Origin: Paraburkholderia caballeronis
GTDB taxonomy: Bacteria > Pseudomonadota > Gammaproteobacteria > Burkholderiales > Burkholderiaceae
Assembly: GCF_900104845.1 (NCBI RefSeq)
Contig: NZ_FNSR01000002.1
Coordinates: forward strand, 1,550,001 to 1,614,000
Length of the DNA: 64,000 nt
Direction of reading: 5' to 3'
The position numbers and the translations under genes were made by a program. How positions within the stretch are numbered: position 1 is the first letter of the stretch; each line of letters starts with the position of its first letter. Below are positions 10,197 to 43,423 of the stretch, one piece after another. Below the pieces are notes generated by a model, which did not search any database, had not been told where the DNA came from, and saw only the letters and a program-made list of their open reading frames with translations.

Positions 10197-10239
10197 TCCG
10201 GCACGGACTGGCATTGGCGATGATGACGGAGGGAATCAA

Positions 10240-11262
10240 ATGAATCTGGCGACACAGTATCTGGGTCTCACGCTGAAGAATCCGCTCGTCGCGTCGGCGG
10301 CGCCGTCGAACGCGGACCTCGGCCATCTGCACCGGCTGGAGGACGCCGGCGCGGCGGCCGTCGTGCTGCCTTCGCTGTTCGAGGAGCAGATTGCGTCCGC
10401 GGGCGGCCACTTCGACGCGATTCTCGCGGCGGGCGCGGACAACAATCCGGAGGCGCATCAGCACTACCTGCCGCCGGGACGCGTCACGCACGGGCCATAC
10501 GGCCTGCTGCCGGACCGTTATCTGGAGCGGGTGCGGCGCGCGCGGGAAAGCCTGTCGATCCCGGTGATCGCGAGCCTGAACGGCGCGACGCCGGACGGCT
10601 GGGCGGACTATGGCCAGCGGCTCCAGCAGGCGGGCGCGCACGCGCTGGAGCTGAACCTGTATTCGGTGCCGACCGATCTCGACGAATCGGGCGAGCAGAT
10701 CGAGGCGCGCTGCCTGCGCGTCGTGCACGAACTGCGCACGCAACTCGACATCCCGCTGGCCGTGAAGATGAGCCCGTATTTCACCGCCGTCGGCAACATG
10801 GCGCTGCGGTTCGCCGAGGTCGGCGCGAACGGGCTGGTGATCTTCAATCGTTATCTGCAACCCGACATCGACCTGCGCACGCTTTCGCTGTCGAGCGACA
10901 TCGCGCTGAGCCAGGCCGCCGACATGCGCCTGCCCATGCAATGGGTCGCGCTGCTCGCGGGCCGCGTGCCGGTGTCGCTCGCGGCGTCGACCGGCGTCGA
11001 GACGGCGGAGCAGGTGGTCAAGTATCTGTACGCGGGCGCAGACGTGGTGATGACGACGTCCGAGGTGCTGCGCGACGGCCCCGACTGTTTCCGCCGATTG
11101 CTCGACGGCCTGTGCGAATGGCTCGATGCGCGCGACCTCGGCTCGCCGGACCGCATTCGCGGCGCGATGAGCTTCGCGCGGCTGAAGGACCCGGGCGCGT
11201 ATGCGCGCGGCCACTACATCGACGCGCTTCAGACATGGACGCGCTCGCATCGCAGCGTATGA
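10240..11262 (+). CDS. Dihydroorotate dehydrogenase-like FMN-barrel protein of the nifJ cluster
   Basis: A 340-aa TIM-barrel protein resembling class 1 dihydroorotate dehydrogenase, beginning LATQYLGLTLKNPLVASAAPSN and ending with the phosphate-binding STGVETAEQVVKYLYAGADVVMTTSEVL segment. The catalytic-loop region normally reading NxSCPN is replaced by NLYSVPTDLDESG, so pyrimidine synthesis is unlikely. It starts 43 bp after nifJ with GGAGGG 4 nt before the ATG. Homologues of this kind are often found beside nifJ, but their reaction is unknown to me; it may be an FMN-dependent reductase drawing electrons from the cluster. Confidence 0.8.
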   Translation: MNLATQYLGLTLKNPLVASAAPSNADLGHLHRLEDAGAAAVVLPSLFEEQIASAGGHFDAILAAGADNNPEAHQHYLPPGRVTHGPYGLLPDRYLERVRRARESLSIPVIASLNGATPDGWADYGQRLQQAGAHALELNLYSVPTDLDESGEQIEARCLRVVHELRTQLDIPLAVKMSPYFTAVGNMALRFAEVGANGLVIFNRYLQPDIDLRTLSLSSDIALSQAADMRLPMQWVALLAGRVPVSLAASTGVETAEQVVKYLYAGADVVMTTSEVLRDGPDCFRRLLDGLCEWLDARDLGSPDRIRGAMSFARLKDPGAYARGHYIDALQTWTRSHRSV

Positions 11263-11290
11263 ACGCCCGCGCCGGGGAGCAGGAGAGCGA

Positions 11291-12298
<1,008 letters not shown>

Positions 12299-12331
12299 CG
12301 ACGGTGCCTTTTCACAGGCCGGCCGCGAATT

Positions 12332-13327
12332 TCAGGGCGACGCCGGTTGCATGCTGGAGGCGGCTACGGGTGCTTTTTTCGCGTTCTCGTTCTCGTCGCT
12401 GGTTCCGGCCGCGTCGTTGGTGATCGTCGTCGCCGACGTGTCGTCGTGGACCAGCGCCGCTTCGGCGCGCGCGCTCAACACGATGATGCTGATGCGCCGG
12501 TTCCCGGCCGCAAGCGGATCGACGCCGCTCAGGCTCTGCGATGACGCCAGGCCCGCGATGCGCAGCACTCGCGATTGATCCATGCCGGCCGCGATCAGTT
12601 CGCGCCGCGAAGCATTCGCGCGCGCGGTGGACAGTTCCCAGTTGCTGTAATTCTTCTCGCCGCCGGAGTACGGCACCGCATCGGTGTGCCCCTGGATGAT
12701 GATCCGGTTCGGCACCGAATTCACCGATCTGCCGATCGCCTGCAAGATGTCCCGCATATACGGTTCGACGGCGTCGCTTGCCGTCGCGAACATCGGACGG
12801 TTCTGCGCGTCGCGGATCTCGATGCGCAACCCCTGCTGCGTGGAGTCGATCCGGATCTGCTGGCGAAACGGGCGCAGTTCGGGGTTCGCCTCGATGGCGG
12901 CGAGCACGCTGAGCTGCAGGCTGCGCAGCCGCGCCTGCTCGATACTTTCCGGACTTTCCGAAGCGGCGGTGGCGGCGTCGCCGCGGCGCGGAACCGATTG
13001 GCCGGCGCGATCCGTCGCGCTGGTCGATAAATGGGTGACGCCCGTTCCGTCGGTCGAGAGGCCGCCGCCCGCGCCCTTGATGGCGGACGTATCGATCGCG
13101 TCCCGGTCGCCGCCCCACAGCGGGATCCGCACCGGCTCGCTGAAATAGGCCGCGATGCCCGCGCGCTGGGTGTTCGACGCCGAACTGACGATCCACAGCA
13201 GCAGGAAAAACGCCATCAGCGCGGTCATGAAATCCGCGTAGGCGAGTTTCCATGCGCCGACCGGCTGATCGGGCTTCTCGGGCGCGCGCCGCTTGACGAC
13301 TCGCGGCGCGGGTTTGTGCTTGGGCAT
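12332..13327 (-). CDS. motB: Flagellar motor stator protein MotB, orphan copy
   Basis: A 331-aa protein. Residues about 20-50 form the single transmembrane helix with the proton-carrying Asp in WKLAYADFMTALMAFFLLLWIV. The C-terminal OmpA/MotB peptidoglycan-binding domain (about 175-290) has IIIQGHTDAVPY, NWELSTARANASR and GNRRISIIVL. The last 40 residues are a low-complexity tail. MotB normally works as a MotA4-5:MotB2 ion channel encoded by an adjacent motA; here no motA is present and the 540 bp upstream hold no gene. It is therefore probably a second copy or part of a split locus. The start is fixed by the conserved basic PKHKPAPRVVKRR leader. Confidence 0.9.
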   Translation of the reverse strand: MPKHKPAPRVVKRRAPEKPDQPVGAWKLAYADFMTALMAFFLLLWIVSSASNTQRAGIAAYFSEPVRIPLWGGDRDAIDTSAIKGAGGGLSTDGTGVTHLSTSATDRAGQSVPRRGDAATAASESPESIEQARLRSLQLSVLAAIEANPELRPFRQQIRIDSTQQGLRIEIRDAQNRPMFATASDAVEPYMRDILQAIGRSVNSVPNRIIIQGHTDAVPYSGGEKNYSNWELSTARANASRRELIAAGMDQSRVLRIAGLASSQSLSGVDPLAAGNRRISIIVLSARAEAALVHDDTSATTITNDAAGTSDENENAKKAPVAASSMQPASP

Positions 13328-29852: not shown

Positions 29853-30155
29853 CTACGCGTCGTTCTTCAGGCCCAGCACGTCGACGAGTTCGATCGCCGG
29901 CGCGGCGGCGAACAGTTCGGCCGCGCGCGCCATCAACGCCTGCCCGATCGGGCCGGACAGATGCGCGTCGCGGTCGGCGGCGGATGCGAACGCGTCGAAG
30001 ATGCCGAACGTCGAGTCGGAGAGCCGCAGCGCGAACCAGATCGGCGTGGTCGTTTCCCGGTTCGCCATCTCCAGCGCCTGCGCGAGAAATGCCGCTACGG
30101 CCTCTTCGTGGCCGGGTTTTGCTTCGAACCTTGCGTATAGCGCGTAGCGGATCAT
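29853..30155 (-). CDS. Antibiotic-biosynthesis-monooxygenase-fold (ABM) small protein
   Basis: A 100-aa single-domain protein with the ABM/YgiN ferredoxin-like fold: RYALYARFEAKPGHEEAVAAFLAQALEMA and PIWFALRLSDSTFGIFDAFASAADRDAHLSGPIGQAL. Members act on quinones or other aromatic compounds, or have no known substrate. GGAG lies 7 nt before the ATG at 30155. It is the first gene of the efflux operon, 6 bp before the DUF1656 gene, which suggests that it modifies or protects against the same aromatic compounds the pump exports. Confidence 0.85.
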   Translation of the reverse strand: MIRYALYARFEAKPGHEEAVAAFLAQALEMANRETTTPIWFALRLSDSTFGIFDAFASAADRDAHLSGPIGQALMARAAELFAAAPAIELVDVLGLKNDA

Positions 30156-30442
30156 CTTTGCTCTCCGGGGTCGTGCGGCGTCGCGAAAAAACGATACGTG
30201 GATCGGCGCGCGAACGATTGCCGCTTCTTGCTCGAATTTGACGATGGATGCTTTTGTGGTCGCCGTGCTTTTACGCATCGCGAGCACCGCAAAAGAACAG
30301 CCCCGCCCGCCGTGTCCAGGCGAGCGGGTTGTGGACTATGATCCCCATGCTCGCGGATCGAAGAAGAAACGACCGGCCCACGCACACGGCGCGCGTCGGC
30401 CATCCATCGGCCATGCACGGCGCGCAAGCCCGGAGACAGACC

Positions 30443-32098
30443 TTGAAAACGATCACCGTCACGCTCGTGCTGCTCGGATGCGTCATCGCGGGCAGCTTCA
30501 TCAAGCGCGCCGCCCGGATTCCGCTGCCCGTCGCGCTGGTGCAGATCGCGACCGGCGCGCTGGTCGCGGAGGTGTTCGACTTCCGGGTTACCGTCGCCCC
30601 CGATGTGTTTCTGCTGCTGTTCGTCGCGCCGCTGCTGTTCCTCGACGGCTGGCGGATCTCGAAGGAGGGGCTGTTTCGCGACAGGTGGACGATCGGCGCG
30701 CTCGCGCTCGGCCTCGTCGTGTTCACCGTCGTCGGCGCGGGCTGCTTCATTCACTGGCTGATTCCGCTGATGCCGCTGCCCGTCGCGTTCGCGCTCGCGG
30801 CCACGCTTTCGCCGACCGACGCGGTCGCGGTGTCGGCCATCGCGGCGCGCGTGCCGGTGCCGCAGCGGTTGATGCGCGTGCTGGAAGGCGAGGCGCTGCT
30901 GAACGATGCGTCGGGGCTCGTCTGCCTTCGTTTCGCGATCGCGGCGGCCGTAACCGGCTCGTTCTCGCTGGTCGAAGCGGGCGGGACGTTTCTGTGGCTG
31001 GTCGCGGGCGGCGTCGCCGCGGGCGTGGTCGTGACGCTCGTCGCGAACGCGGCGAAGGACTGGGCCGCGACCCGCTTCGGCGAGGACACCGGCACGCAGA
31101 TCCTGATCAGCCTGCTGCTGCCGTTTGCGTCGTACGTCGTGGCCGACCGGCTCGCGGCGTCGGGCATCCTCGCCGCCGTGACCGCCGGCATCGTGATGAG
31201 CTACGAGGAACTGGCGGGCAGGGCGCTCGCGGGGACGCGCATTCGCCGCGCCGCCGTGTGGGATGCGTTGCAGTTCGCCGGCAACGGCGTGGTGTTCGTG
31301 CTGCTCGGGCAGCAGTTGACGGGCGTGATCGCCCGCGCCGGTCAGGCGGTCGAGCAGACCGGCCGGCACGCGGAAGGATGGCTGCTCGTGTACGTCGCGG
31401 CGGTCAGCGGCGTGCTGTTCGTGCTGCGTTCGCTGTGGGCATGGACCACGCTGCGGCTGATCGCGTTTCGCGCCGGCCGTGGCGCTCCGATGACGATTCG
31501 CGCGCCGGGCTGGCGCGTGGTCGCGGTGACGTCGCTGGCCGGCGTGCGGGGCGCGGTGACGCTGTCCGGCGCGATGGCGCTGCCGCTGTTTCTCGCGGAC
31601 GGCTCGCCGTTTCCGGCGCGCGATCTGGCGATCCTGATCGCCGCGGGCGTCATCATCGTGACGCTGATCGCGGCGAACGTCGGTTTGCCCCATGCGTTGC
31701 GCGGCATCGACGTGTCGCCCGGCACGCGCGAGCAGCGGCAGGAGGACGAAGCGCGCTGCGCGGCCGCGCGCGCGGCGATCGAAGCGGTGACGCGCGCGCT
31801 CGGCGAAGCGGAGAAGGACGCGGACGAGGCCGATTTTTTCGCCCAGGCCGGCGCGCGGCTCATCGCGCATTATCGCGAGCAGATCGAACTGCACGTGCGT
31901 TCGGGCGCGGACTCGGCGCGCGGCCTGAAGATCGACGCGAGCGAGCGCGAGTTGCGTCTGCTCGCGCTCGGCGCGGAGCGCGAAGAGCTTTATCGGTTCG
32001 CCCGCCTCGGCCGCCTGACGGACGAACAGACCCGCCATCTGGTGCGGGAGATCGACTTGCAGGAGTCGCGGTTCAGTGTCCATCGTCCGCGCGACTGA
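30443..32098 (+). CDS. Na+/H+ antiporter, CPA1 family
   Basis: A 551-aa polytopic membrane protein with about 12 helices and a cytoplasmic C-terminal tail of about 130 residues. The ion-binding helix reads LAATLSPTDAVAVSAIAARVPVP with the family ND/TD motif, followed by LEGEALLNDASGLV, and LAGVRGAVTLSGAMALPL later. It exchanges cytosolic Na+ (or K+) for protons. The start is taken at TTG 30443 because GGAG lies 8 nt upstream and relatives begin with an equivalent TITVTLVLLGC segment; an ATG at 30413 is the alternative. Confidence 0.85.
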   Translation: MKTITVTLVLLGCVIAGSFIKRAARIPLPVALVQIATGALVAEVFDFRVTVAPDVFLLLFVAPLLFLDGWRISKEGLFRDRWTIGALALGLVVFTVVGAGCFIHWLIPLMPLPVAFALAATLSPTDAVAVSAIAARVPVPQRLMRVLEGEALLNDASGLVCLRFAIAAAVTGSFSLVEAGGTFLWLVAGGVAAGVVVTLVANAAKDWAATRFGEDTGTQILISLLLPFASYVVADRLAASGILAAVTAGIVMSYEELAGRALAGTRIRRAAVWDALQFAGNGVVFVLLGQQLTGVIARAGQAVEQTGRHAEGWLLVYVAAVSGVLFVLRSLWAWTTLRLIAFRAGRGAPMTIRAPGWRVVAVTSLAGVRGAVTLSGAMALPLFLADGSPFPARDLAILIAAGVIIVTLIAANVGLPHALRGIDVSPGTREQRQEDEARCAAARAAIEAVTRALGEAEKDADEADFFAQAGARLIAHYREQIELHVRSGADSARGLKIDASERELRLLALGAEREELYRFARLGRLTDEQTRHLVREIDLQESRFSVHRPRD

Positions 32099-32147
32099 AA
32101 CTTCGCGGCCGCCGCGCAGCGTCGATGGTGTGCGATCGCGCCTCTCG

Positions 32148-33539
32148 CTAACCGTGCATCATCCATCCGCCCGCCGCCATGGCCGCCTGGCGCAACGCTT
32201 CCGACCACGCGGGATACGGATGGCAGACTCGCGCGAAGTCCTCGCAGATCATCGACGCCTCCATCGCGACGGCGACCTGCGAAACCAGTTCGGCCGCGCC
32301 CGCGCCGATCAGATGCGCGCCGGCGATCAGGTTCGTGCGGGCATCGACCAGCAGCTTCACGAAGCCTTCCGGCGCGCGATGGATCGCGGCATGCGCGTTC
32401 GCGGCGAGCGCGCAGCGGCCGACCTTGTACGGCACGCCGCCGAACCGAAGCTCGTCCTCGGTCTTGCCGATCGTCGCGACCTCGGGGCTCGTGTAGAGCA
32501 CGGCCGGCATGGACGAATAGTCGACGAAACCGGGCAGGCCCGCGATCTGTTCCGCGCACGCGATCGCTTCTTCTTCCGCCTTCGTCATCGACATCGGGCC
32601 GATGGCGGCGTCGCCGACGGTCCAGATTCCGGTCGAAGCGTGTCGTTGAGGCAATGCGCCGTCGCGGTCCGGCCACATGCCGACGCTCGCGAGGTTCAGC
32701 CCCGCGGTCGATGCGCGGCGGCCGATCGCGATCAGCACCGCGTCCGCATCGAGCGTGGCTGGCGCGTTGTCCTGCGGGACGCGCAGCGCGAGCGACACGC
32801 CGTCGGCGCGCGTGTCGATGCGCACGACCTCGGTCGATAGCCGGATGCCGATGCCCTGCCGCCTTAGCGCGCGGTCGAGCGCGGCCGCGATTTCGTGATC
32901 GAGCCAGTGGCAGATGCGCTCGCGGCGCTCGACGAGCGTCACGCGGGCGCCGAGACGACGCCAGAGGGACCCGAGTTCGACGCCGGCCGCGCCGGCGCCG
33001 ACGATGGCGAGATGCCGGGGGATCCGGTCGAGCGACAACGCGTCGGTGGAATCGAGAATCCGCGCGTGATCGAATGCGGCAGCCGCGAGCGGAATCGGCT
33101 CGGAGCCGGTCGCGATCACGATGGCCGGCGCGGACAACGTCTGCTGTGCGCCGTTCATCGACGTGACGATGACCCTGCCCGCGCCGTCGAGCCGCGCATG
33201 TCCGCCGGCGAGCGTGACGTGCTGCGCGCGAAGCCGTTGGCGGACCTGCGCGGACAGCTTCTGCACCGTCGCCGTTTTATGGGCCATCAGCCGCGCGAGG
33301 TCGAGGGTCGGCGGACCGTCGATTCCCAGCGCGGCGTGTTTTCGTCTGCGGCCCGCGTCGTAGAGCGCGGACGCGTGAAGCAGCAGCCGCGACGGAACGC
33401 AGCCGGTGCGGAGGCCCGCTCCGCCGATATCCGGTCCGCGTTCGACGCACGCGACCTGGAGGCCGAGCTGGCTCGCGCGAATCGCGGTGTTGTATCCGCC
33501 CGCGCCGCATCCGATGACAATCACGTCGTATCGATTCAT
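32148..33539 (-). CDS. Dihydrolipoyl-dehydrogenase-like FAD protein lacking one redox cysteine
   Basis: A 463-aa protein with the full class-I pyridine-nucleotide disulfide reductase layout. The FAD site is VIVIGCGAGGYNTAIRASQLG (residues 7-27), the NAD site is HLAIVGAGAAGVELGSLWRRLG, the second FAD motif is IWTVGDA, and the dimerisation domain is C-terminal. The redox-centre motif, normally GGTCLNVGC, reads GGAGLRTGC: the first Cys is Gly42 while Cys47 remains. Near the C-terminus the catalytic His of CHAHPTLSE aligns with Tyr in CHPYPAWSE. Normal lipoamide chemistry is therefore unlikely. No dehydrogenase-complex E1/E2 genes are nearby. It is convergent with the antiporter gene. Confidence 0.87.
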   Translation of the reverse strand: MNRYDVIVIGCGAGGYNTAIRASQLGLQVACVERGPDIGGAGLRTGCVPSRLLLHASALYDAGRRRKHAALGIDGPPTLDLARLMAHKTATVQKLSAQVRQRLRAQHVTLAGGHARLDGAGRVIVTSMNGAQQTLSAPAIVIATGSEPIPLAAAAFDHARILDSTDALSLDRIPRHLAIVGAGAAGVELGSLWRRLGARVTLVERRERICHWLDHEIAAALDRALRRQGIGIRLSTEVVRIDTRADGVSLALRVPQDNAPATLDADAVLIAIGRRASTAGLNLASVGMWPDRDGALPQRHASTGIWTVGDAAIGPMSMTKAEEEAIACAEQIAGLPGFVDYSSMPAVLYTSPEVATIGKTEDELRFGGVPYKVGRCALAANAHAAIHRAPEGFVKLLVDARTNLIAGAHLIGAGAAELVSQVAVAMEASMICEDFARVCHPYPAWSEALRQAAMAAGGWMMHG

Positions 33540-33886
33540 CCGGCCTGTCCCGTGGAATTCCGTCGGCGAGGAGCGATGAATGGGGGAAACATTCGTCCTC
33601 GCGGCCACGGAAACGGGGCGGCGAAGCAGGGACGTATGCCGAACATAACAGCGCGAACGCGCGCCGGATTGAACGCTCATGCGCGTGGTGGTCGATATTT
33701 GACCGCGTATGCAAGGGTTATTCGCGATTCCGGTCGAATGACGGGACGATAGCTTTCATCGGCGCATTGCGCCGCCATACGCTGATATATCGAGAGTGGA
33801 AAATGTCGTCGTGGTAAATTCGGATTCCAGAATTCGTGTCACGCGGATTGCCATGCATTCGATTTATCTGCCGAGCGGAGCCGATG
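33540..33886. other. 347-bp divergent region between lpd-like and AraC genes
   Basis: No gene is apparent. The stretch is AT-richer than the average of the window. It contains a 6-bp-arm dyad CGGCGC-ATT-GCGCCG at 33760-33774 and several TA-rich words (for example around 33780-33800) that could be promoter elements for the AraC gene. Confidence 0.5.
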
Positions 33887-34834
33887 ATGACCGGGCTACA
33901 GCATGACGGTGCCGAAGCGCCGAAGCTCGTCTCGATCGACGAGATCATGCACGTGCTGTCGCATCGCCCTACCGCGACGACGCGCGAGCGCAACTGGGCC
34001 GGCGTCACGGTCGACATGTACGCGCCGCTCTCCAACATATCGGAGCGTTATCCGCCGCTCGATCATCATCTGATCTGCTATTGCCCGACCGGAACCGCGC
34101 GTCTCGTTCAGGGGCGGGGCGGGATCGTCCACGAAGGCGTCGTGTGCGCCGGCGTGTCGATGCTGATGCCGGCCGGCTACGACTCGCTGTGGGAAGGGCA
34201 TGCGTCCGCGACGGCGCGGCTGCGCATCCCGACCGGGCTGATCGCGGCGGCCGGCGAACAGTTGGGACGCCGCAGCACGTCGCAGGTCGAGATCCGCAAC
34301 GTGTTCGAAACGCGCGACGCCGTGATCGGCCACATCGCGCAGATCCTGATCGCGGAACTCGAACGCAAGCCGCATCCCGCGCAGGCGCTGCTCGTCGATT
34401 GCGTGTCGGCCGCGCTGGCCGCGCATCTGCTGCGCAGCTACAACGGCTTCGAGCCGGTCGCGGAGCAGGCGTTGCCCGCGTTGAGCCGGGTCGAACTGGC
34501 CCGGCTGACCGAATACATCGAGGACAATCTGGACCGTCCGATCGGGCTCGGCGAACTGGCGGGCGTCGTGAACGTGAGCCGCTTCCACTTCAGCCGTCTG
34601 TTCAAGCGAAGCATGGGAATGACGGCGATCAGCTATGTCGAGCAATGCCGGATTCGGCGCGCCCAGACGCTGATCCTGGAGACCGTCATTCCGCTTTCGG
34701 AGATCGCGCTGATGACGGGTTTCGCGGATCAGAGCCACTTCACGAGGCGTTTCCATCGCCACGTCGGCTGCACGCCCGCGACGTTCGCTCGCGAGCATGG
34801 GCGACGGAGGTCGGCGGGCGGCGGGCGTAGCTGA
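33887..34834 (+). CDS. AraC-family transcriptional regulator
   Basis: A 315-aa regulator. The N-terminal ~200 residues are a cupin-like effector domain of the AraC-binding-like type. The C-terminal double HTH starts at about residue 215 with LARLTEYIEDNLDRPIGLGELAGVVNVSRFHFSRLFKRSMGMTAISYVEQCRIRRAQTLIL and continues LSEIALMTGFADQSHFTRRFHRHVGCTPATF. Tandem ATGs occur at 33884 and 33887; GGAG at 33877 favours the second. It ends next to the DoxX gene (convergent, no gap) and its target is unknown; the divergent lpd-like gene is a candidate. Confidence 0.9.
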   Translation: MTGLQHDGAEAPKLVSIDEIMHVLSHRPTATTRERNWAGVTVDMYAPLSNISERYPPLDHHLICYCPTGTARLVQGRGGIVHEGVVCAGVSMLMPAGYDSLWEGHASATARLRIPTGLIAAAGEQLGRRSTSQVEIRNVFETRDAVIGHIAQILIAELERKPHPAQALLVDCVSAALAAHLLRSYNGFEPVAEQALPALSRVELARLTEYIEDNLDRPIGLGELAGVVNVSRFHFSRLFKRSMGMTAISYVEQCRIRRAQTLILETVIPLSEIALMTGFADQSHFTRRFHRHVGCTPATFAREHGRRRSAGGGRS

Positions 34835-35347
34835 TCAGCGCCGGGTTTCGATATCGCGCCGGTGCTGCCCGCGGTCGATCAGGCGATCCAGCGACAGCGG
34901 GCCGGGTCCGAGCGCCATGATGCCGACCGCAAGCGATGCCCAGTAGAGGTGGAAATTCGCCCAGCCATCGGGAAACACCAGTTGAATCACGCCGGTCATC
35001 AGCAGCAGCGCGAGCGCGGCCAGCCTCGTGGCGAGTCCCAGCAGCAGTAAAACCGGAAGCGCGATTTCCGCCACGGCGACGATGAACGCAATCGTATCCG
35101 GCGCGGGAAAGCCGTATGCCGCGCCGAACACGTGGACCTTGAACTGGTTCTCGAACAGATAGAGCGTGGCGGGCGAGATCGACAGGAATCCGTCCCATCG
35201 CGTGCGGCCCGACCGAAGGAACGGCAGCGCAAGCGCGAGCCGCAGCAGCGGCGGCGCGACGAGCCAGGCAACCGACTGGATGCGCTCCAGCGCCGGGCGG
35301 AGCAGCGATTCGACACGGCTTTTCGCCGGGCGGACGAACGGATTCAT
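34835..35347 (-). CDS. DoxX-family membrane protein of the bufferin operon
   Basis: A 170-aa inner-membrane protein with four hydrophobic helices and the DoxX pattern (LLRLALALPFLRSGRTRWDGF, ending in LYWASLAVGIMALGPGPLSLDRLI). DoxX-type proteins are frequent partners of DUF692/DUF2063 gene pairs. It overlaps bufC by 4 nt (ATGA) and is the last gene of the operon, ending head-on against the AraC gene. Its role in the peptide pathway is unknown, perhaps membrane redox or export. Confidence 0.88.
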   Translation of the reverse strand: MNPFVRPAKSRVESLLRPALERIQSVAWLVAPPLLRLALALPFLRSGRTRWDGFLSISPATLYLFENQFKVHVFGAAYGFPAPDTIAFIVAVAEIALPVLLLLGLATRLAALALLLMTGVIQLVFPDGWANFHLYWASLAVGIMALGPGPLSLDRLIDRGQHRRDIETRR

Positions 35348-36186
35348 GCGGGCCTCGCCATCGTTGTCGAATCGCAGTCGTCGCGCTCGCTCCATCCGGC
35401 TATCGCATCGGTGGCGAAGAGGTTTGCCAGCGCGTTTGTGAGGTCGAATGTGGAATCGTCATCGAGTGCGAGCGCCGTCGCTTCCGCTATCGTCGCGCCG
35501 TCGGCGAGGCCCTGAATGAAGGTGGCCGCGCCGACAGTCACGCGGCGAACTTCGACGTCGGCGACCGGACGCATGACGATGGCGTGCTCGCCGCCGCGAA
35601 AGAGGTCGATTGCAACGGGCGCGTTTTCGCTGACGTTCATCAGCCAGATTGCGACCACCGGAAAAGCCGAGCGCACGATGCGCACCGATGGATGCAGCGT
35701 CAGCGCGATCTGTGAGAGACGACGCGAATCGATCGCGCCGAGCCGCGCGAGATCGACAGGCCGCGACTCGGCGGCGTGATAGGCGTCCATCCACGCGCGT
35801 TCGAGCCGCGCGACGTCGGCCAGATACGGCACGCTTCGCGCGGGTTCGAAGGTACCGACGAAGTCAGCGAACGTCGCGCCATAGTCCAGCATCACCGGAG
35901 TACGCGGCGGCTCGGACGCGACGTAGAGGCGGGCCATCGCCGCGAAGAATTCGTCGCCGACGATGCGGCGCACGGCGGGAAACGTGGCCTTGAGCGTATC
36001 GACGAGGCTCGTCACGACATTGTTCCGGTAGACGTTGAAGCGCCGGACCGACGGCTCGCGGTCGGGGCCGACCAGTCCGTCGGGCATCGGCATATCGGGG
36101 TTCAGCAGCGCGGCGGCGAAGTGCTTCTGCCGTTCGTATAGAGAGCGCCCGTTGGCGGCCGCTTGAGACGACGAAACGCGAATCAT
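35344..36186 (-). CDS. bufC: DUF2063 (HvfC/BufC-type) RiPP-maturation partner protein
   Basis: A 280-aa protein. The N-terminal DUF2063 domain (residues about 15-105) reads LYERQKHFAAALLNPDMPMPDGLVG...RRFNVYRNNVVTSLVDTLKATFPAVRRIVGDEFFAAMARLYV. The conserved YRNN and FPA(V) motifs are diagnostic. The C-terminal half is a beta-rich region, as in other BufC-type partners. Family members accompany MNIO enzymes and are thought to present or recognise the precursor peptide. It starts 7 bp after the unrecognised 325-aa gene and overlaps the DoxX gene. Confidence 0.9.
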   Translation of the reverse strand: MIRVSSSQAAANGRSLYERQKHFAAALLNPDMPMPDGLVGPDREPSVRRFNVYRNNVVTSLVDTLKATFPAVRRIVGDEFFAAMARLYVASEPPRTPVMLDYGATFADFVGTFEPARSVPYLADVARLERAWMDAYHAAESRPVDLARLGAIDSRRLSQIALTLHPSVRIVRSAFPVVAIWLMNVSENAPVAIDLFRGGEHAIVMRPVADVEVRRVTVGAATFIQGLADGATIAEATALALDDDSTFDLTNALANLFATDAIAGWSERDDCDSTTMARPA

Positions 36187-36193
36187 GGCCGCC

Positions 36194-37171
36194 TCACGAC
36201 CGGAACGGCCGTTGCACGACGTTCGTCCATAGCCGGCGAAGACTATCGACGCCGCCGGCCGTCGAACTCCACAGCGTCGTATCGCTGACGAACAGGCTGC
36301 CGGCGAACGTATCCGCGCGGGATTGCAGCAGCGCGTCGAACGTGTCGCGCCCGACGGCGAACGGATGCGGCGCAGCGGTGACGTCGATGCGTTGACGCGC
36401 AAGGACGTCTAGTTTTTCCATTGCGTCGCCGATACGTTCCAGTTGGGGCAGATGCGGATGCAGATTGAAGGTATCGACATGGTCGAGCATGCCTAACCGG
36501 TCCAGCGTCGTCTCGATTTCGAGCGGCGCGGGAGATCCGTCCGGCCCGGCTGCGGGCCGGAGTCCGAAGCGGTTCTCCACGGGGAGGCCGAGTCCCGCGA
36601 GGAGCGAGCGGGCGAAGCCGCCGAAGCGTTGCCGGGGCGGAATCGTTCTGTCGCCGTGATGCTGGAATTCCGCGATTCGCCGCTGCAACGCAGCGTCTTC
36701 CGCGAGTTCATCCGCGGCTCCTATGTCGTGATGCGGGCAAACGAACGCGAGATGATCGGGCTGGCCGAGAAACGCGCGGACAGCGTTTATCTCGCCGCTT
36801 TCCGCGTGTTGCGACGTTCGAATCGAATCGAAGCTGATGACGATGAGCGTATCGACGCCATCGAGCAGGCGGGCGTCGAGCGGCGTCAGCGTGCCGTCGT
36901 CCGCGACGCGCTCGATTTCGATCACCGGCTGGCCCGTCAGCGTGGTCGCCAGATCGACGAACGCGGTGAAGTTGTGCTTCATGATGTGATCGAGAAAACC
37001 CGCGATGCCCTGGTCGAACCGCTGCGGGTCCGCGAATTCGTGAAAGCGCGGGAAACCCATCCGGCGGCTTTCGAACAGCGCCGGGAACCGGTCGTCGATC
37101 ACGTGCAGCGGCGCGCCGGTTTCGCCGGGCCGGCTCCACGCGTAATAGACAAGGACGTTTCGTTTGCTCAT
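36194..37171 (-). CDS. Unrecognised 325-aa histidine-rich protein within the bufferin operon
   Basis: I do not recognise a family. The N-terminus ([33 protein letters not shown]) and a central alternating strand/helix segment ([15 protein letters not shown]...[22 protein letters not shown]) suggest a Rossmann-like or class-I-amidotransferase-like alpha/beta fold. Histidine clusters (PHHD, QHHGD, NLHPHLP, APHP) could bind a metal; only one cysteine is present. There is no signal peptide or membrane helix. The ATG at 37171 overlaps the bufB stop by 4 nt, and bufC begins 7 bp after its stop, so it is translated with both. Embedding between maturase and partner implies a role in the same pathway. 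Confidence 0.8.
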
Positions 37172-38082
37172 GTCGCATGCTCCTCTGCGCGCCGGTGCGG
37201 GACGGCGGTTCGCGGTTCGGCGCGCGCGGTGGCCCGCATGATGGCTTCGGCGCGCTCGGCTTCCGCTGCGAGCGTGAGCCAGCCGGGCAGGTTCGCGTCC
37301 CATTCGACGAGGGTCGGCACCGGACCGGTTCGACGGATCACGCGTGCGAACAGCTCCCATACGAAGTCCGCGACGTGCCGGTCGTGCGTATCGATCAGAA
37401 GCGGACGGCCAGCTTCGTCCGCTTCCCGCGCGTGGCCGGCCAGATGGATTTCCTGCACGGCCGCGAGCGGATACGCGTCGAGATACGCGACAGGATCCCA
37501 CTGTTGATTCACGGACGCCACATAGGCGTTGTTGACGTCGAGCAGCAGGCCGCATCCGGTCCGTCTCGCGACCGCGGCGATGAAATCGACTTCCGCGTAC
37601 GTGTTTTCGTCGAAGGCCAGATAGGTGGATGGATTCTCCAGCAGCATCCGCCGGCCGAGCGCCTCCTGCACCTGATCGACGTGCTGCACGACGCGGGCGA
37701 GGCTTGCGTCGGTGTACGGGATCGGCAGCAGATCGTCGAGGAACCCGCAATCGTGGCTGGACCACGCGAGATGCTCGGAAAAAAGCCCCGGCTCATAACG
37801 GGCGACGAGCGCCTTCAGCCGCCGGAGATGGTCCTGGTCGAGCGGGCGGTCCGCGCCGATCGACAGGCCGACGCCGTGAACCGACAGCGGATAACTCGCC
37901 CTGATGGCCGACAGGAAACGGTGAGGCGGGCCGCCCGCGCCCATGTAGTTTTCCGCGTGGACCTCGAAGAACCCGACGTCGGGCGACGATTCGAGAATCG
38001 TGCGGTAGTGTTCCGCCTTGAGCCCGACGCCGGCGCGAAGAGGCACGCTCAGACGGGCGTCGACGAACGATGAGTCGGACAT
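37168..38082 (-). CDS. bufB: MNIO-family (DUF692) peptide-modifying enzyme, BufB type
   Basis: A 304-aa TIM-barrel protein of the multinuclear non-heme iron oxidase family. Expected metal ligands are visible: His69 ([10 protein letters not shown]), Glu104 and His105 (FSEHLAW), Asp183/Asn185 (LLDVNNAYV), His214 and His218 (EIHLAGH), Asp232/His234 (IDTHD). The N-terminal [15 protein letters not shown] and [11 protein letters not shown] segments are family hallmarks. MNIOs modify cysteine residues of peptide precursors; BufB members act on bufferins, giving copper-binding thiooxazole groups. It sits 67 bp after the precursor gene and overlaps the next gene. Confidence 0.95.
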
Positions 38083-38149
38083 GGGCGGTCGCGGTCGCAG
38101 AGTGGATGAGCGGGCCGGGTCGTGTCGCCGACCCGGCCGCCGATGGGTT

Positions 38150-38482
38150 TCAGACCTTCGGAGACAGGCTGCCGGGTCCCTTCGGCGTGGAAATGCTCTT
38201 GCAGGTGCCGGTCGGCACCAGCTTGAACGCGTTGCCCTGATAGTCGGCCGTGCTCGTTCCGGCGCAGGTCGTGCCGGCGCCCGCGTAACAGTCGTTCTGG
38301 CCTTTCAGCGCGGTGCCGAAACACGGTTCGACCTTGCCGGCCTTGACGAGGGCCGTGTGCTCGGCCTGGATCTTCTTCTGGGCTTCGGTGAACTCCTGCG
38401 CGCTGGCCGGCGTGGCGCAGACTGCGGCAAGCGCAGCCGCGAACGCGCCGGCAACGAACGTGGTCATTTTGTGATCGGCCAT
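38150..38482 (-). CDS. bufA: Bufferin-type RiPP precursor (DUF2282, BufA)
   Basis: A 110-aa protein with a signal peptide ending near ATPASA-Q29. The mature part has four cysteines (54, 65, 73, 94) in the DUF2282 arrangement: [41 protein letters not shown]. This is the layout of bufferin precursors, which are exported and bind copper after cysteine modification by an MNIO enzyme. GGAG lies 6 nt before the ATG at 38482; an internal ATG six codons later is the alternative. It is the first gene of the operon bufA-bufB-unknown-bufC-doxX. Copper as ligand is by family, not shown by the sequence. Confidence 0.93.
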
Positions 38483-38508
38483 GGGATTTCTCCGGATTGA
38501 GTGAGCGT

Positions 38509-38538
38509 GACGGCGTTCGACACGACGGTGTTCGAGCG
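38509..38538. promoter_or_regulatory. 15-bp imperfect tandem repeat upstream of bufA
   Basis: GACGGCGTTCGACAC is followed immediately by GACGGTGTTCGAGCG, 11 of 15 positions identical, 27-56 bp upstream of the bufA start. The placement suits an operator or a repeated half-site for a regulator or ECF sigma factor. I do not recognise the motif. Confidence 0.4.
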
Positions 38539-38721
38539 TCGGAAGGGAATCAATGCGGCGACGCGGTTCGCGGCGGTATGCCGACGATGAACTGCTACGT
38601 CACCGCACGCTCAGAATACGGAAGCGGCGTGGGCCGAAGATTGCACGGTGTTGTGCGATTTGGTATCGGATTGCGATCGGGGGCGATGGCTGGGCGGCTT
38701 CGCATCGCGTCGGCGAGCGGC

Positions 38722-39024
38722 CACGCGTTCAGAATACCGGCCGCCCATGGCCGTGGGATTCAACGACGGCGATCGGGTCGTCCCGCGCAGCCGGCCTTCA
38801 TCACCGACGACCCGGAGACCGCGTGCGAAGCCCTGCTGGCCGCAGGATCGGTGTCGGGCTGTTGCCCTGGCATCTGGCGTTGCCGCTGATGCGCGAAGGC
38901 CGCCTGGCGTCGCTGCTCGACCGTCTGCGGCTGGAGCCTTCGACCGCTTATGTGTATCGTCCGCAGCGCACGCCGGTGCTGTTCCGGGTCCGGCCGATCT
39001 TCGATGCGACCTGCGAAGGGTTCG
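38722..39024 (+). pseudogene. C-terminal remnant of a LysR-type regulator, frameshifted
   Basis: In one frame the sequence reads PAFITDDPETACEALLAAG; in the next, IGVGLLPWHLALPLMREGRLASLLDRLRLEPSTAYVYRPQRTPVLFRVRPIFDATCEGF. Together they are the typical C-terminal third of a LysR effector domain. They join if one base is added near 38852, so a 1-nt deletion broke the gene. No HTH or upstream half is present between here and bufA. The downstream end has been cut by, or lies against, the LysE gene terminus at 39031. Confidence 0.7.
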
Positions 39025-39030
39025 CGCCTG

Positions 39031-39669
39031 TTACAGCGTGTTCCGGTTCGCCACCAGAATCAACCGCAACCCGAGCGCCGCAATCACGCCGCTCGCGGCC
39101 CGATCGATCCACTTCTTCGCACGCAGATACATGTCGCGCGGCCGCTGCCCGGAAAAACACCATGCGACGACCGTGTACCAGCCCGCTTCGATCGCAAAGA
39201 CCAGCGGCGGCAGCGCGACGTAGCACCAGACCGGCGGATGCTGCGGCAGCAGCGCGACGAAGATGCTGCCGTAAACGACGGCCGTTTTCGGATTGCTCAA
39301 CTGCGTGGTCAGCCCGAGCCAGAACGAGCGCGACAGGCCGTGCCGCCCCGTGCCGCCGGCGCGGTCGAAAACGATCGGCTCGGCCGCGCCGCGCCAGATC
39401 CGGACCGCCAGATAGACCAGATAAGCGCCGCCCGCGACTTTCAGCGCGACGTACAGCCATGCGACGCTCGCGAGCAGCGTATACAGCCCGGCAAGCGCGA
39501 TGCCGCTGAAGAAGATGCCGCCGACTCCCATCCCGAGTGCGGTCGCGATGCCGTCGCCGCGCGACAGCCCGATCGCGTTGCGCGCGACCATCACGAAACT
39601 CGGCCCGGGGCTCATCGCACCCAGTAGCAGTGCGGCGAGAATTCCTGCGATGCTGGCTGATGCGCTCAT
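39031..39669 (-). CDS. LysE-family amino-acid exporter
   Basis: A 212-aa membrane protein with about six helices and the family start MSASASIAGILAALLLGAMSPGPSFVMVARNAI, where SPGP is diagnostic of LysE/RhtB transporters. LTTQLSNPKTAVVYGSIFVALLP is the conserved central helix. It exports an amino acid or derivative. GGAG 6 nt upstream fixes the ATG at 39669. A perfect 16-bp palindrome lies 50 bp upstream. No linked regulator gene survives, although a LysR remnant lies immediately 3'. Confidence 0.9.
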   Translation of the reverse strand: MSASASIAGILAALLLGAMSPGPSFVMVARNAIGLSRGDGIATALGMGVGGIFFSGIALAGLYTLLASVAWLYVALKVAGGAYLVYLAVRIWRGAAEPIVFDRAGGTGRHGLSRSFWLGLTTQLSNPKTAVVYGSIFVALLPQHPPVWCYVALPPLVFAIEAGWYTVVAWCFSGQRPRDMYLRAKKWIDRAASGVIAALGLRLILVANRNTL

Positions 39670-39719
39670 CGGCGGCTCCTGGGCGGGGGTGGTCGGTCCG
39701 TGGTCGAAAACCGAAAATA

Positions 39720-39735
39720 GCATGGCCGGCCATGC
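39720..39735. promoter_or_regulatory. Perfect 16-bp palindrome upstream of LysE gene
   Basis: GCATGGCCGGCCATGC is fully self-complementary and lies 51-66 bp before the LysE start codon, in the divergent region shared with the small exported protein at 40017. It is a candidate operator; the regulator is unknown. Confidence 0.4.
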
Positions 39736-40016
39736 GGCGGATAGAAAAGCGGTCGAATCCGGCCGCGTGCGCTGAATGCGACATCGAAAACGATCCCATT
39801 GGCGAATTAGTTGCCAGGATTCTTTGGCGATGGCACGATACCGGCTCAGGTTCAATCCGTTTTGCATTCGCGGTTATTCCGGCATTCGGCGCTATTCAGC
39901 CGGATTTCGCGCGATTTATCCGGACGGAATGAGCCGCTTGTCCGTTCCATGCTTGCCGCAATTGTGCGCGCCGGGGTTATGGCCGTAGTGTGACGATCAA
40001 TCAACGATAAAAAAGA
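39736..40016. other. Remainder of the divergent region between LysE and a small exported protein
   Basis: About 280 bp with mixed GC content. Open frames exist but lack ribosome sites or any resemblance to known proteins. Close to the downstream gene the sequence becomes AT-rich (GATAAAAAAGA before the ATG at 40017). The promoter of that gene probably lies here. Confidence 0.4.
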
Positions 40017-40370
40017 ATGGTCCGTATTGCCTGCAGTCTGTCTGTCGCCAGCCTCGTGCTGGTCGCCACTGTGGCTGCCGCTGCCGCTCAACCGCCCCAT
40101 CCCGCATCCGATCTCGCCCATGCGCAGCAACTGGTCGGGCAGAGCCGCCGCCTCGTGCGGGACGCGCACCGGCAAAGCCCGGACGGCTTCGGCGGTCACG
40201 AGGCGAAGGCGGAAAAGCTGCTGAGACGCGCATCGGTCGAACTCAACGCGGCGCACGACTTCGCGTCGTACAACACGGTCAAGACGCCGCCCCGCCCGCA
40301 TACGGTCAAGCACCGGAAGCGCCGCCGGATCGTGAGGGTCGCGCAGCACGTGGAGCCCGCGTCGCAATAG
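40017..40370 (+). CDS. Small exported hypothetical protein
   Basis: A 117-aa protein with a clear signal peptide (VRIACSLSVASLVLVATVAAAAAQ, cleavage after AAAAA or AQ). The mature part is helical, DLAHAQQLVGQSRRLVRDAHRQ and HEAKAEKLLRRASVELNAAHD, then a basic proline-containing tail (HTVKHRKRRRIVRVAQH). The arrangement resembles small periplasmic helical proteins of Burkholderia of unknown role. An AAAAAAGA stretch before the ATG supplies only a weak ribosome site. Function unknown. Confidence 0.65.
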   Translation: MVRIACSLSVASLVLVATVAAAAAQPPHPASDLAHAQQLVGQSRRLVRDAHRQSPDGFGGHEAKAEKLLRRASVELNAAHDFASYNTVKTPPRPHTVKHRKRRRIVRVAQHVEPASQ

Positions 40371-40820
40371 CGCGCCGTCATTGCCGAACGGGTTTCGGCA
40401 ATCCGCGCGATTGCGATGGCTAAAACATCCGGTAAGTCTGTTTCAGCGGAAACGGACTGCGCACCTGCTTTTCCGATAGAACAGGAAGCTCGTTGCCGTC
40501 GAAACACGTCGACGGTTTTCCCATTGCGACGATTCGAAATAAACCACGATAAAACAATCGTTTGCAGTGAAAGAATAATTCCACATAAGCAACGAAGCAC
40601 TCGATGGTAGGTGCCGCCGTCGAGACTTTTTAAACTTGCCCGCATGCAATCGTCGCCGGGCAGGTTGTCGATGCAACGTTCATCGCGGGTTTTATCGCAC
40701 ACTTTGTCGTGACGGATGCGCAGCGCGTATCGATCGTCCATTGGCTGGCCCGGCCGGTTGCCCAGGCGAATTTCTCCAAGGCTTTACCCGTCGGTAAAGC
40801 GGCATCCAGGCAAGCATTCA
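40371..40820. other. 450-bp region before the second sulfur module, no convincing gene
   Basis: The middle (about 40470-40600) is AT-rich compared with its surroundings and contains several short inverted words. Open frames on both strands have no support. It probably contains the promoter and control sites of the operon that begins at 40821. I looked for a sigma-54 GG-N10-GC element, as used for sfn genes in Pseudomonas; the best match, near 40745-40760, has the wrong spacing. Confidence 0.45.
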
Positions 40821-42056
40821 ATGGCAACCGAAGCTACCGAAAATATCGAACTCGTTCCGGAAACGGAAGCCCGCAAGTCCGTCCCGATCATCGGCTCCGA
40901 TGCGCACGCATTGACCGTCGCGCGTGAAGTCGCGGCCAGGCTGAAGGAACACGCCGCGTTGCGCGATCGCGAGCGCAAGCTGCCGCACGACGAAATCGAA
41001 CTGTTCTCGTCGAGCGGTCTGTGGGGGATCACCGTGCCGAAGGAATACGGCGGCGCGGAAGTGTCGAACGTCACGCTCGCGGAGGTGATCGCGATCGTGT
41101 CCGAAGCCGATCCGTTGATCGGCCAGATTCCGCAGAACCACTACTGCCTGATCGAGGACATTCGCCTTGAAGGCACCGAAGAGCAGAAGCGCTTTTTCTT
41201 CGACCTGGTGCTGAAGGGCACGCGCTACGGCAATGCGTTTTCCGAGGCGGGCGGCAAGAACGTGCTCGACATCCAGACGCGCATCCGCCGCGACGGCGAC
41301 GGTTTCGTGCTGAACGGCCGCAAGTTCTATTCGACCGGCACGCTGTTCGCGCACTGGATCCCGGTGCTCGCCCTCGACGAGCAGGATGAGGCGGTGCTCG
41401 CGTTCGTCAAACAGGGGACGCCGGGCCTTGCGGTGATCGACGACTGGAGCGGCTTCGGCCAGCGCACGACGGCGAGCGGCACGGTGGTCGCGCAGAACGT
41501 GCGCGTCGGCCCGTTCGAGATTTTCCATACGCAGCGTTCGTACGACCGGCCCACGTTCGCCGGCCCGTTCGCGCAGATCACGACGGCCGCGATCGACCTC
41601 GGCATCGCGCGCGCTGCGCTGCATGACACGATCGAATTCGTGCAGCAGCATGCGCGTCCGTGGATCGACAGCGGCGTCGAGCGCGCCGCGCAGGACCCGT
41701 TGACGATCGCGCAGATCGGCGACCTCGCGTACCGCATCCATGCGGCCGAAGCGTTGCTCGAACGCTCGGGGCGCTTCGTCGATGTCGCAAAACGCGAGCC
41801 GACCGAGGAATCGGTTGCGCACGCGGCGATCGCGGTCGGCGAGGCGAAGATCGCGACGACCGAAGTCGCGCTGCTCGCGGCGAGCAAGCTGTTCGAACTC
41901 GGCGGCAGCAAGTCGACGCTCGCGAAATACAACTTCGACCGGCACTGGCGCAACGCGCGCGTGCATACGCTGCACGACCCGGTGCGCTGGAAGTATCACG
42001 CGATCGGCAACTACTACCTGAACGGCGTCAAACCCGCGCGCCACTCGTGGAACTGA
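40821..42056 (+). CDS. SfnB-family acyl-CoA-dehydrogenase-type sulfur acquisition oxidoreductase
   Basis: A 411-aa flavoprotein of the acyl-CoA dehydrogenase fold. The SfnB/DszC pattern is strong: HDEIELFSSSGLWGITVPKEYGGAEVSNVTLAEVIAIVSEADPLIGQIPQNHY, GRKFYSTGTLFAHWIPV, IDDWSGFGQRTTASGTV and C-terminal FDRHWRNARVHTLHDPVRWKYHAIGNYYLNG. Reduced flavin probably comes from a separate reductase. It is followed by an NtaA/DmoA-type monooxygenase 5 bp later and an APC permease. It would help liberate sulfur from organosulfur compounds when sulfate is scarce. Confidence 0.88.
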   Translation: MATEATENIELVPETEARKSVPIIGSDAHALTVAREVAARLKEHAALRDRERKLPHDEIELFSSSGLWGITVPKEYGGAEVSNVTLAEVIAIVSEADPLIGQIPQNHYCLIEDIRLEGTEEQKRFFFDLVLKGTRYGNAFSEAGGKNVLDIQTRIRRDGDGFVLNGRKFYSTGTLFAHWIPVLALDEQDEAVLAFVKQGTPGLAVIDDWSGFGQRTTASGTVVAQNVRVGPFEIFHTQRSYDRPTFAGPFAQITTAAIDLGIARAALHDTIEFVQQHARPWIDSGVERAAQDPLTIAQIGDLAYRIHAAEALLERSGRFVDVAKREPTEESVAHAAIAVGEAKIATTEVALLAASKLFELGGSKSTLAKYNFDRHWRNARVHTLHDPVRWKYHAIGNYYLNGVKPARHSWN

Positions 42057-42061
42057 CGCGC

Positions 42062-43423
42062 ATGAGCAACGAAATCAGGCTCAACGCGTTTACGATCAAC
42101 AGTCCGGGGCATCTGTCCGCCGGGCTGTGGCGGCATCCGGACGACCAGTCGCACCGGTACACCGATCTGCGCTACTGGACCGATCTCGCGGTCACGCTCG
42201 AACGCGGATTGTTCGACGGCCTCTTCATTGCCGACGTGCTGGGCGTCTACGACGTGTACGGACACAGCGCGGACGCCGCGCTGCGCAACGCGGCCCAGGT
42301 GCCGATCAACGATCCGCTGCAACTGGTGTCCGCGATGGCGGCCGCGACCCGTCATCTCGGCTTCGGCGTGACCGCGTCGGTGTCGTTCGAGCATCCGTAT
42401 CCGTTCGCGCGCCGGCTGTCGACCGCCGACCATCTGAGCGGCGGACGCATCGGCTGGAACATCGTCACGTCGTATCTGGAAAGCGGCGCGCGCAATCTCG
42501 GCCACGCTGCGCAACTCACGCACGACAACCGCTACGAACTCGCGGACGAATACCTGGAGGTCTGCTACAAGCTGTGGGAAGGCAGCTGGGAGGCCGGCGC
42601 GGTGAAGCGGGATGCGGCGCGCGGCGTGTATGCGGATCCGCGGCAGGTGCACGAGATCGGCCACCGCGGCAAGTTCTTCACGGTGCCGGGTTTCCATCTG
42701 AGCGAGCCGTCGCCGCAGCGCACGCCGGTGCTGTACCAGGCGGGCGCGTCGTCGCGCGGGCGGCAGTTCGCGGCGCGGCATGGCGAGTGCATCTTCGTCG
42801 CCGCGCCGACGCGCGGCATCCTGCGCCGCCAGGTCGACGCGTTGCGCGCGGAAGCCGTGAAGCAGGGCCGCCGCGCGGACGACCTCCTGATCTTCAACCA
42901 GATCACCATCGTGGTCGCGCCGACCGACGCCGCCGCACGCGCGAAATTCGACGACTATCGCCGCTACGTCAGCCGCGACGGTTCGCTCGCGCTGATGTCC
43001 GGCTGGACCGGCATCGACTTCAGCCGCTTCGATCCGGACGACACGCTCGAACACGCGGACAGCAACGCGATCCAGTCGGCGGTCGAGGCGTTCACGTCGG
43101 CGGACCCGGAGCGCAAGTGGACCGTGGGCGAGATCGCCGACTACTGCGGCATCGGCGGCGACGGCCCGGTGATCGTCGGCTCGCCCGTGACGGTCGCGGA
43201 CGCGTTGCAGGCGTGGATCGACGAGACCGGCGTCGACGGTTTCAACATTGGCGCGGTCGTCAATCCGGGCAGTTTCGCGGACATCGTCGAGTGGCTCGTG
43301 CCGGAGTTGCAGCGGCGCGGCGTCTACAAGCGCGCGTATCGCGACGGCACGCTGCGCGAGAAATTGTTCGGCCATGGCGCGGGCTTGCCGCCCGCGCACT
43401 ACGGCACGCGCTTTCGCGTCTGA
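42062..43423 (+). CDS. NtaA/DmoA-family FMN-dependent monooxygenase (bacterial luciferase-like)
   Basis: A 453-aa protein of the NtaA/SnaA/DszA branch of the luciferase superfamily. Landmarks are FTINSPGHLSAGLWRHPDD near the N-terminus, DLAVTLERGLFDGLFIADVLG, HLSGGRIGWNIVTSYLESGARNLG and GFHLSEPSPQRTPVLYQAGASSRGRQFAARHGECIFV. These enzymes use FMNH2 and O2 on substrates such as nitrilotriacetate, dimethylsulfide or dibenzothiophene sulfone. The pairing with an SfnB-type protein points to a sulfur substrate. The ATG at 42062 follows the SfnB stop by 5 bp. Confidence 0.9.
   Translation: MSNEIRLNAFTINSPGHLSAGLWRHPDDQSHRYTDLRYWTDLAVTLERGLFDGLFIADVLGVYDVYGHSADAALRNAAQVPINDPLQLVSAMAAATRHLGFGVTASVSFEHPYPFARRLSTADHLSGGRIGWNIVTSYLESGARNLGHAAQLTHDNRYELADEYLEVCYKLWEGSWEAGAVKRDAARGVYADPRQVHEIGHRGKFFTVPGFHLSEPSPQRTPVLYQAGASSRGRQFAARHGECIFVAAPTRGILRRQVDALRAEAVKQGRRADDLLIFNQITIVVAPTDAAARAKFDDYRRYVSRDGSLALMSGWTGIDFSRFDPDDTLEHADSNAIQSAVEAFTSADPERKWTVGEIADYCGIGGDGPVIVGSPVTVADALQAWIDETGVDGFNIGAVVNPGSFADIVEWLVPELQRRGVYKRAYRDGTLREKLFGHGAGLPPAHYGTRFRV

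Follow-up and report, generated by a model that had tools for sequence, protein, structure and literature searches.

The stretch of DNA analysed here, referred to as the window, comprises 64,000 nucleotides of Paraburkholderia caballeronis (contig NZ_FNSR01000002.1, positions 1,550,001 to 1,614,000) and harbors on its minus strand, at 34835-38482, an operon for a copper-buffering peptide (bufferin, Buf1) formed by bufA, bufB, BufX, bufC and doxX. BufX, a name coined in this analysis, is a 325-residue protein of an unnamed family. As 81 of 118 operons have no BufX match on the same stretch and only 37 have one, it counts as an accessory of bufferin systems and not as one of their core components. 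The explanation that we favour, tentatively and with somewhat less than even confidence, is that BufX works in the cytosol as an accessory enzyme whose His/Asp site probably binds metal, and that it was recruited into one bufferin subtype, where it acts on BufA or on the product formed by the MNIO enzyme.

The subtype concerned would be the one in whose precursor an aromatic residue directly follows the second core Cys. Of the 37 operons with BufX, 36 have Tyr and one has Phe at this place; of the 78 BufX-free operons that give a core, 77 have Ala, Lys or Gly and one has Tyr. The 118 operons are non-redundant by BufB and exclude that of the window, where Tyr66 immediately follows Cys65; the BufX-free ones come from the closest BufB matches of the genus, an order sample and five plasmid loci, hence are not random, and often span few kb only. 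According to the Fig 3 legend of Antoine et al. 2025 (Microb Genom, PMC12452194), the central Cys of Buf1 are modified while a disulphide links the first to the last, and therefore the aromatic residue would adjoin a modified Cys. We regard the correlation as a lead, not as a proof.

The bufferin operon and its added gene

The operon and its immediate neighbour are composed as follows.

38150-38482, minus strand: bufA, Buf1-type (DUF2282) precursor of 110 residues; PF10048 at 75.4 bits (cut-off 22.4)
37168-38082, minus strand: bufB, MNIO family bufferin maturase of 304 residues; PF05114 at 9e-107, NF050167 (MNIO_BufB) at 386 bits (cut-off 310)
37168-37171, minus strand: ATGA overlap of 4 nt, joining the bufB stop to the BufX start
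36194-37171, minus strand: BufX, 325 residues, unnamed family, predicted class-I glutamine-amidotransferase (GATase)/ThuA-like fold
35344-36186, minus strand: bufC, DUF2063 (PME-type 1) partner protein of 280 residues; PF09836 at 2.5e-27
34835-35347, minus strand: doxX, DoxX family membrane protein of 170 residues; PF07681 at 9e-14
33836-34834, plus strand: AraC-family regulator (PF12833, PF00165), tail-to-tail with doxX

The bufA-bufB and BufX-bufC junctions measure 67 and 7 bp, respectively, and 4-nt overlaps join bufB to BufX and bufC to doxX. An earlier note, made from the letters of this DNA, had described five minus-strand genes with such overlaps or gaps of 7-67 bp as a bufferin locus; its coordinates and junctions are correct, and the PF10048, PF05114/NF050167, PF09836 and PF07681 matches bear out the Buf1 assignment. 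The ATGA overlap suggests that bufB and BufX are translationally coupled. The bufC product reaches 52 bits with the HvfC RRE model NF050145, whose cut-off is 142. The four Cys that the note counted in BufA are those of the mature part (core Cys 54, 65, 73 and 94); the total is five, with Cys22 in the signal sequence as judged by eye.

The mature product of such operons is a copper-binding peptide modified with thiooxazole. As in other Buf1 operons, a DUF2282 precursor, an MNIO BufB, a DUF2063 partner and DoxX are present, and the window operon differs from them by one added gene and by the Tyr after the second precursor Cys. Some other Buf1 loci carry a sigma factor/DUF1109 pair, whereas here an AraC gene adjoins doxX (sigma factors were not searched for in the window). 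The same genome holds a second bufferin operon, which is without BufX. Regarding alternative frames, a 523-residue GTG frame enclosing BufX was rejected because it crosses bufB in another frame, and so were the opposite-strand frames 36629-37507 and 37177-38073, which correspond to no family.

A gene at this position has been published. Antoine et al. describe adjamnio-VI as an uncharacterised cluster whose gene, in buf1 operons, separates the MNIO gene from the DUF2063 gene, and BufX shares with it both this position and the lack of a Pfam signature. In 78 of the 81 BufX-free operons bufC lies at most 291 bp from the bufB match, so that no other insert is found there, while bufC is elsewhere in two (L089, L092) and has no match in one (L126). 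Given the same position and no rival insert in those 78, BufX is probably adjamnio-VI. The portions of that article available to us describe neither a fold nor a motif for adjamnio-VI and do not place it outside bufferin operons, the term adjamnio was found in no other publication, and the available portions of two MNIO papers (PMC13097082, PMC12538549) make no mention of such a protein. Likewise, in the literature, as far as its accessible text goes, we found neither the fold and motifs of BufX nor the cassette with DyP or the correlation with the precursor core. What is new here is probably the fold resemblance, the family beyond bufferins and the core correlation; the existence of the gene is probably already in print. 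The suggestion in the earlier note of an undescribed component thus stands as to the absence of a named family, but the component itself has very probably been reported as adjamnio-VI, no function being assigned to it in the text available.

Conservation and predicted fold of BufX

Sequence comparison confirms BufX as a real gene and not a chance frame: homologues in 35 loci are 55-81% identical over nearly the whole protein, the third codon position takes most of the differences from four relatives (e.g. 41/30/138), and an alignment of 19 diverse sequences has 49 invariant columns, six of them His. The invariant motifs are PHHDxG (146-151), HHxD (171-174) and FNxHxHLP (235-242). The protein contains 14 His and one Cys and, by eye, no signal peptide, as the earlier note had remarked. 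No column of the 19-sequence alignment is an invariant Cys, and Cys145 is replaced by Gly or Ala in the Streptomyces and Nostoc rows. The possibility that BufX is itself a precursor was rejected on account of its single, non-conserved Cys, its 325 residues and its enzyme-like conservation.

The note did not recognise the protein, and Pfam, NCBIfam and PHROGs yield no family at E<=1, which includes the ThuA (PF06283) and GATase families of Pfam. Against the PDB sequences, the best E value is 0.92 with the protein and 0.2 with the 19-row profile. With the structure approach proposed in the note, a confident model, with a predicted local distance difference test score (pLDDT) of 88.9, resembles the class-I GATase/ThuA-like (GATase1-like) fold. 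A BFVD fold search gave a single match at E<=0.001, to a viral aminodeoxychorismate synthase. As judged by eye, the first four strands of the model come in the same order as in that fold, and PHHDxG occupies the nucleophile elbow position; BufX differs from the fold's members by the absence of a conserved Cys nucleophile. Matches to ThuA are rare nearby (1 of 26 genomes). As to the MNIO partner proteins (PME type 1 or 2), which have a helical DUF2063-like domain, often with an RRE fold, BufX has no DUF2063 match and its model is a mixed alpha/beta fold; PME folds are missing from its fold lists, which is no proof against such a kinship.

Occurrence within and outside bufferin operons

BufX homologues were collected in one scan of genome contigs with patterns taken from the window protein, which biases the set to close relatives, and in plasmid records and genome samples. 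Their neighbourhoods, which the earlier note had proposed to list, are mostly buf operons: the order bufB-BufX-bufC occurs in 25 of the 35 loci, and it is shared by Burkholderiaceae, Rhizobiaceae and Rhodanobacteraceae. Paraburkholderia xenovorans LB400 (L040) carries the same operon as the window. In two loci a buf operon is near but BufX lies outside the bufB-bufC gap, about 65 bp after the doxX match in L026 and about 2.4 kb on in L033, and in eight there is no buf match on the stretch examined, some of these contigs being short. Among 144 genomes of the genus, 19 (own included) carry BufX and 103 carry BufB relatives at E<=1e-60. Eighteen of these carriers are the 18 genomes whose BufB is 72-100% identical to that of the window, the next BufB being at most 61% identical; the nineteenth, G489, has no BufB match at E<=1e-60. 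BufX is therefore rare in the phylum sample, with 2 of 398 genomes, own one included. A natural internal deletion of BufX is seen on a Rhizobium leguminosarum plasmid (L168, 7315-7600), where its ends are left and bufA, bufB, bufC and doxX matches remain.

The family extends beyond bufferins. Eighteen plasmid records have a BufX match, eight of which, five from Streptomyces and three from Nostoc, hold a distant member (36-42% identity). In all eight, by position, a protein of about 180 residues, the BufX homologue and a DyP-type peroxidase are side by side, and the eight are exactly those among 17 records that have a close (68-100%) copy of the 180-residue protein. It should be noted that three Streptomyces records are alike and two Nostoc plasmids come from one strain, which lowers the number of independent cases, and that the neighbourhood was read in five of the eight; unlike the window operon, these five stretches show no BufA, BufB, BufC or DoxX match. 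The same three genes stand together in the proteobacterial genome G425, bringing the DyP linkage to 9 of 9 distant-branch records and the span of the cassette to Actinomycetota, Cyanobacteriota and Pseudomonadota (L043, L044, L045, L046, L047, L184). The 180-residue protein is 59-71% identical between Nostoc, Streptomyces and G425, and its copies in L043 and L045 have no Pfam match.

Other contexts occur as well. A further distant member, the Rhizobium copy L042 (46%), has no adjacent DyP match and follows by a few bases a pyridoxal phosphate enzyme with a tyrosine-decarboxylase C-terminal domain, and solo copies follow a ribonucleotide-reductase-like gene (L016) and a glutamine synthetase gene (L021); in L033 a molybdopterin oxidoreductase gene precedes BufX. 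The role dedicated to the MNIO enzyme that the earlier note had considered is consequently not favoured, as the family reaches DyP-peroxidase cassettes and solo genes. In a BufX tree of 49 rows with midpoint root, the bufferin-linked rows are nested, the DyP-linked and most solo rows fall outside, and two solo lineages (L016/G489 and L176) lie inside the bufferin-linked group. Given this nesting, the family looks wider, and is probably older, than its link to bufferins.

Two contigs with BufX show further features. L027 holds a long array of a repeat unit seen in several frames (7431-10258 and 10280-12917) beside proteins that, by eye, resemble CRISPR Cas2 and Cas1. L025, a record named Mycobacteriaceae, has neighbouring genes that look, by eye, like iron-sulphur cluster genes, and a BufX 62% identical to that of the window, which groups with proteobacterial rows; it is possibly a misassigned bin.

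Concerning the surroundings of the operon, Burkholderiaceae, Dyella and Rhizobiales repeatedly have homologues of the AraC regulator and of a Na+/H+ exchanger (30248-32098) close to BufX; an AraC homologue also lies near BufX in L016, a solo copy, and in L031, both without buf genes. The AraC gene is adjoined by a pyridine nucleotide-disulphide oxidoreductase gene (32148-33545). The motif of such enzymes usually has a Cys pair; here it reads GGAGLRTGCVPSR, and a single Cys at the expected site is also present in five homologues near BufX (L007, L009, L014, L017, L040). Between bufA and a LysE-type gene, 38553-39509 (plus strand) shows faint similarity to the substrate-binding domain of LysR regulators (E 0.033, which does not reach the cut-off) and may be a decayed regulator. 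An Rfam scan of 30000-43000 and promoter and terminator scans of 38400-39100 found nothing.

Candidate roles of BufX

In the mechanism that we favour, the scaffold would be the predicted class-I GATase/ThuA-like fold devoid of a conserved Cys nucleophile, with the conserved His/Asp cluster (PHHD, HHxD, HxH) in the likely active site, where it would probably bind metal. The gene would have been recruited from the wider family into one operon subtype, between the MNIO gene and the DUF2063 partner gene. Since no export signal is seen in BufX by eye, and its gene overlaps bufB, the protein would meet BufA in the cytosol and most likely acts there on the precursor, or on the MNIO product on BufA, before Sec export. 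Its likeliest role would be a second, optional modification step, confined to the Cys-aromatic subtype. That it catalyses a reaction, binds metal and has BufA as substrate is what we infer from these features. In a tree of BufB, built by a quick method from 91 of the 118 rows, the BufX trait changes at least four times and the aromatic residue at least three; in L026 and L033 BufX comes from another branch of its tree and lies outside the bufB-bufC gap, and there, too, the core has Tyr.

Several observations weigh against a role on BufA. The lone BufX-free operon with a Cys-Tyr core (L167, Nitrobacter hamburgensis plasmid 3, with divergent sigma factor and DUF1109 genes) has the residue with no BufX in the operon, and L168, one of the 37, keeps its Cys-Tyr core despite the deletion of most of BufX. 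The number of independent pairs on the BufB tree is two on well-supported branches and four on all, with which a sign test cannot reach significance; events being so few, shared ancestry can explain the Cys-aromatic link. Eleven genomes have an unlinked or displaced BufX, namely those of ten genome-contig loci and G425. Six of them (G425, G906, G908, G910, G911, G913) show no DUF2282 match, which argues that BufA is not the general substrate of the family; some of these are metagenome bins, so that a missing match carries less weight there, but the titles of the records for L016 and L027 (G906, G910) give no such label and G425 is listed as 100% complete. The five with a precursor have a Cys-Tyr core where the buf operon adjoins BufX (L026, L033), and no Cys-aromatic precursor in the other three (L178, L180, L181). 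As for the scaffold, a profile-profile comparison of BufX with GATase proteins of its own genome gave no link, some of the GATase frames taken being wrong.

The main rival, which we consider a possible but doubtful account, sees in BufX a service enzyme for metal-dependent oxidising enzymes, MNIO or DyP-type peroxidase, which would load or repair their metal site or clear a reactive by-product, the peptide not being its substrate. It fits the DyP cassettes better than peptide modification does, as the two settings met repeatedly in different lineages both belong to redox metalloenzyme operons (the nine distant-branch records include several near-identical ones), and it is in keeping with the conserved His/Asp motifs and with BufX in genomes without a bufferin precursor match. 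It does not predict the link to the precursor core, however, and must account for the 81 MNIO operons that do without BufX, as well as for nine plasmid records where a DyP gene lies near a more distant 180-residue protein (24-31%) and no BufX match is found.

BufX may instead have a small molecule as its substrate and serve stress response or metabolism independently of bufferins, being co-regulated with their operon because one signal induces both. The varied contexts of the solo copies and of L033, and an AraC regulator near bufferin-linked and solo copies alike, speak for this, but 25 of 35 loci have the gene inserted, with short gaps, between that of the MNIO enzyme and the DUF2063 gene, which exceeds what co-regulation needs, and the maintenance of this arrangement in three families makes the idea unlikely in our view. 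Least probable by far is a mere passenger gene that contributes nothing to bufferins: the many bufferin operons without BufX and its natural deletion in L168 would suit a passenger, but the preponderance of codon position 3 differences, the place kept between bufB and bufC across the three families and the fact that L026 and L033 show BufX paired with a bufferin operon a second time all oppose it.

A more specific form of the tailoring hypothesis, which we offer as quite a long shot, has BufX as a new kind of metal-dependent tailoring enzyme, on a glutamine-amidotransferase scaffold whose Cys was lost, acting on a phenolic or tyrosyl group. The group would be the Tyr beside the modified second Cys in Cys-Tyr bufferins and a phenolic product in the DyP cassettes, and a tyrosine-decarboxylase-like enzyme stands beside the Rhizobium copy; the mature peptide would then bear a second, as yet undescribed modification next to its thiooxazole.

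The fold, the motifs, the L168 deletion and the BufX-free Cys-Tyr operon L167 make a published 'unknown' directly testable. If BufX modifies bufferins, a whole copper-binding subtype carries overlooked chemistry, and the precursor core tells which one; if it serves redox enzymes generally, it would be an unstudied helper common to two unrelated oxidising systems.

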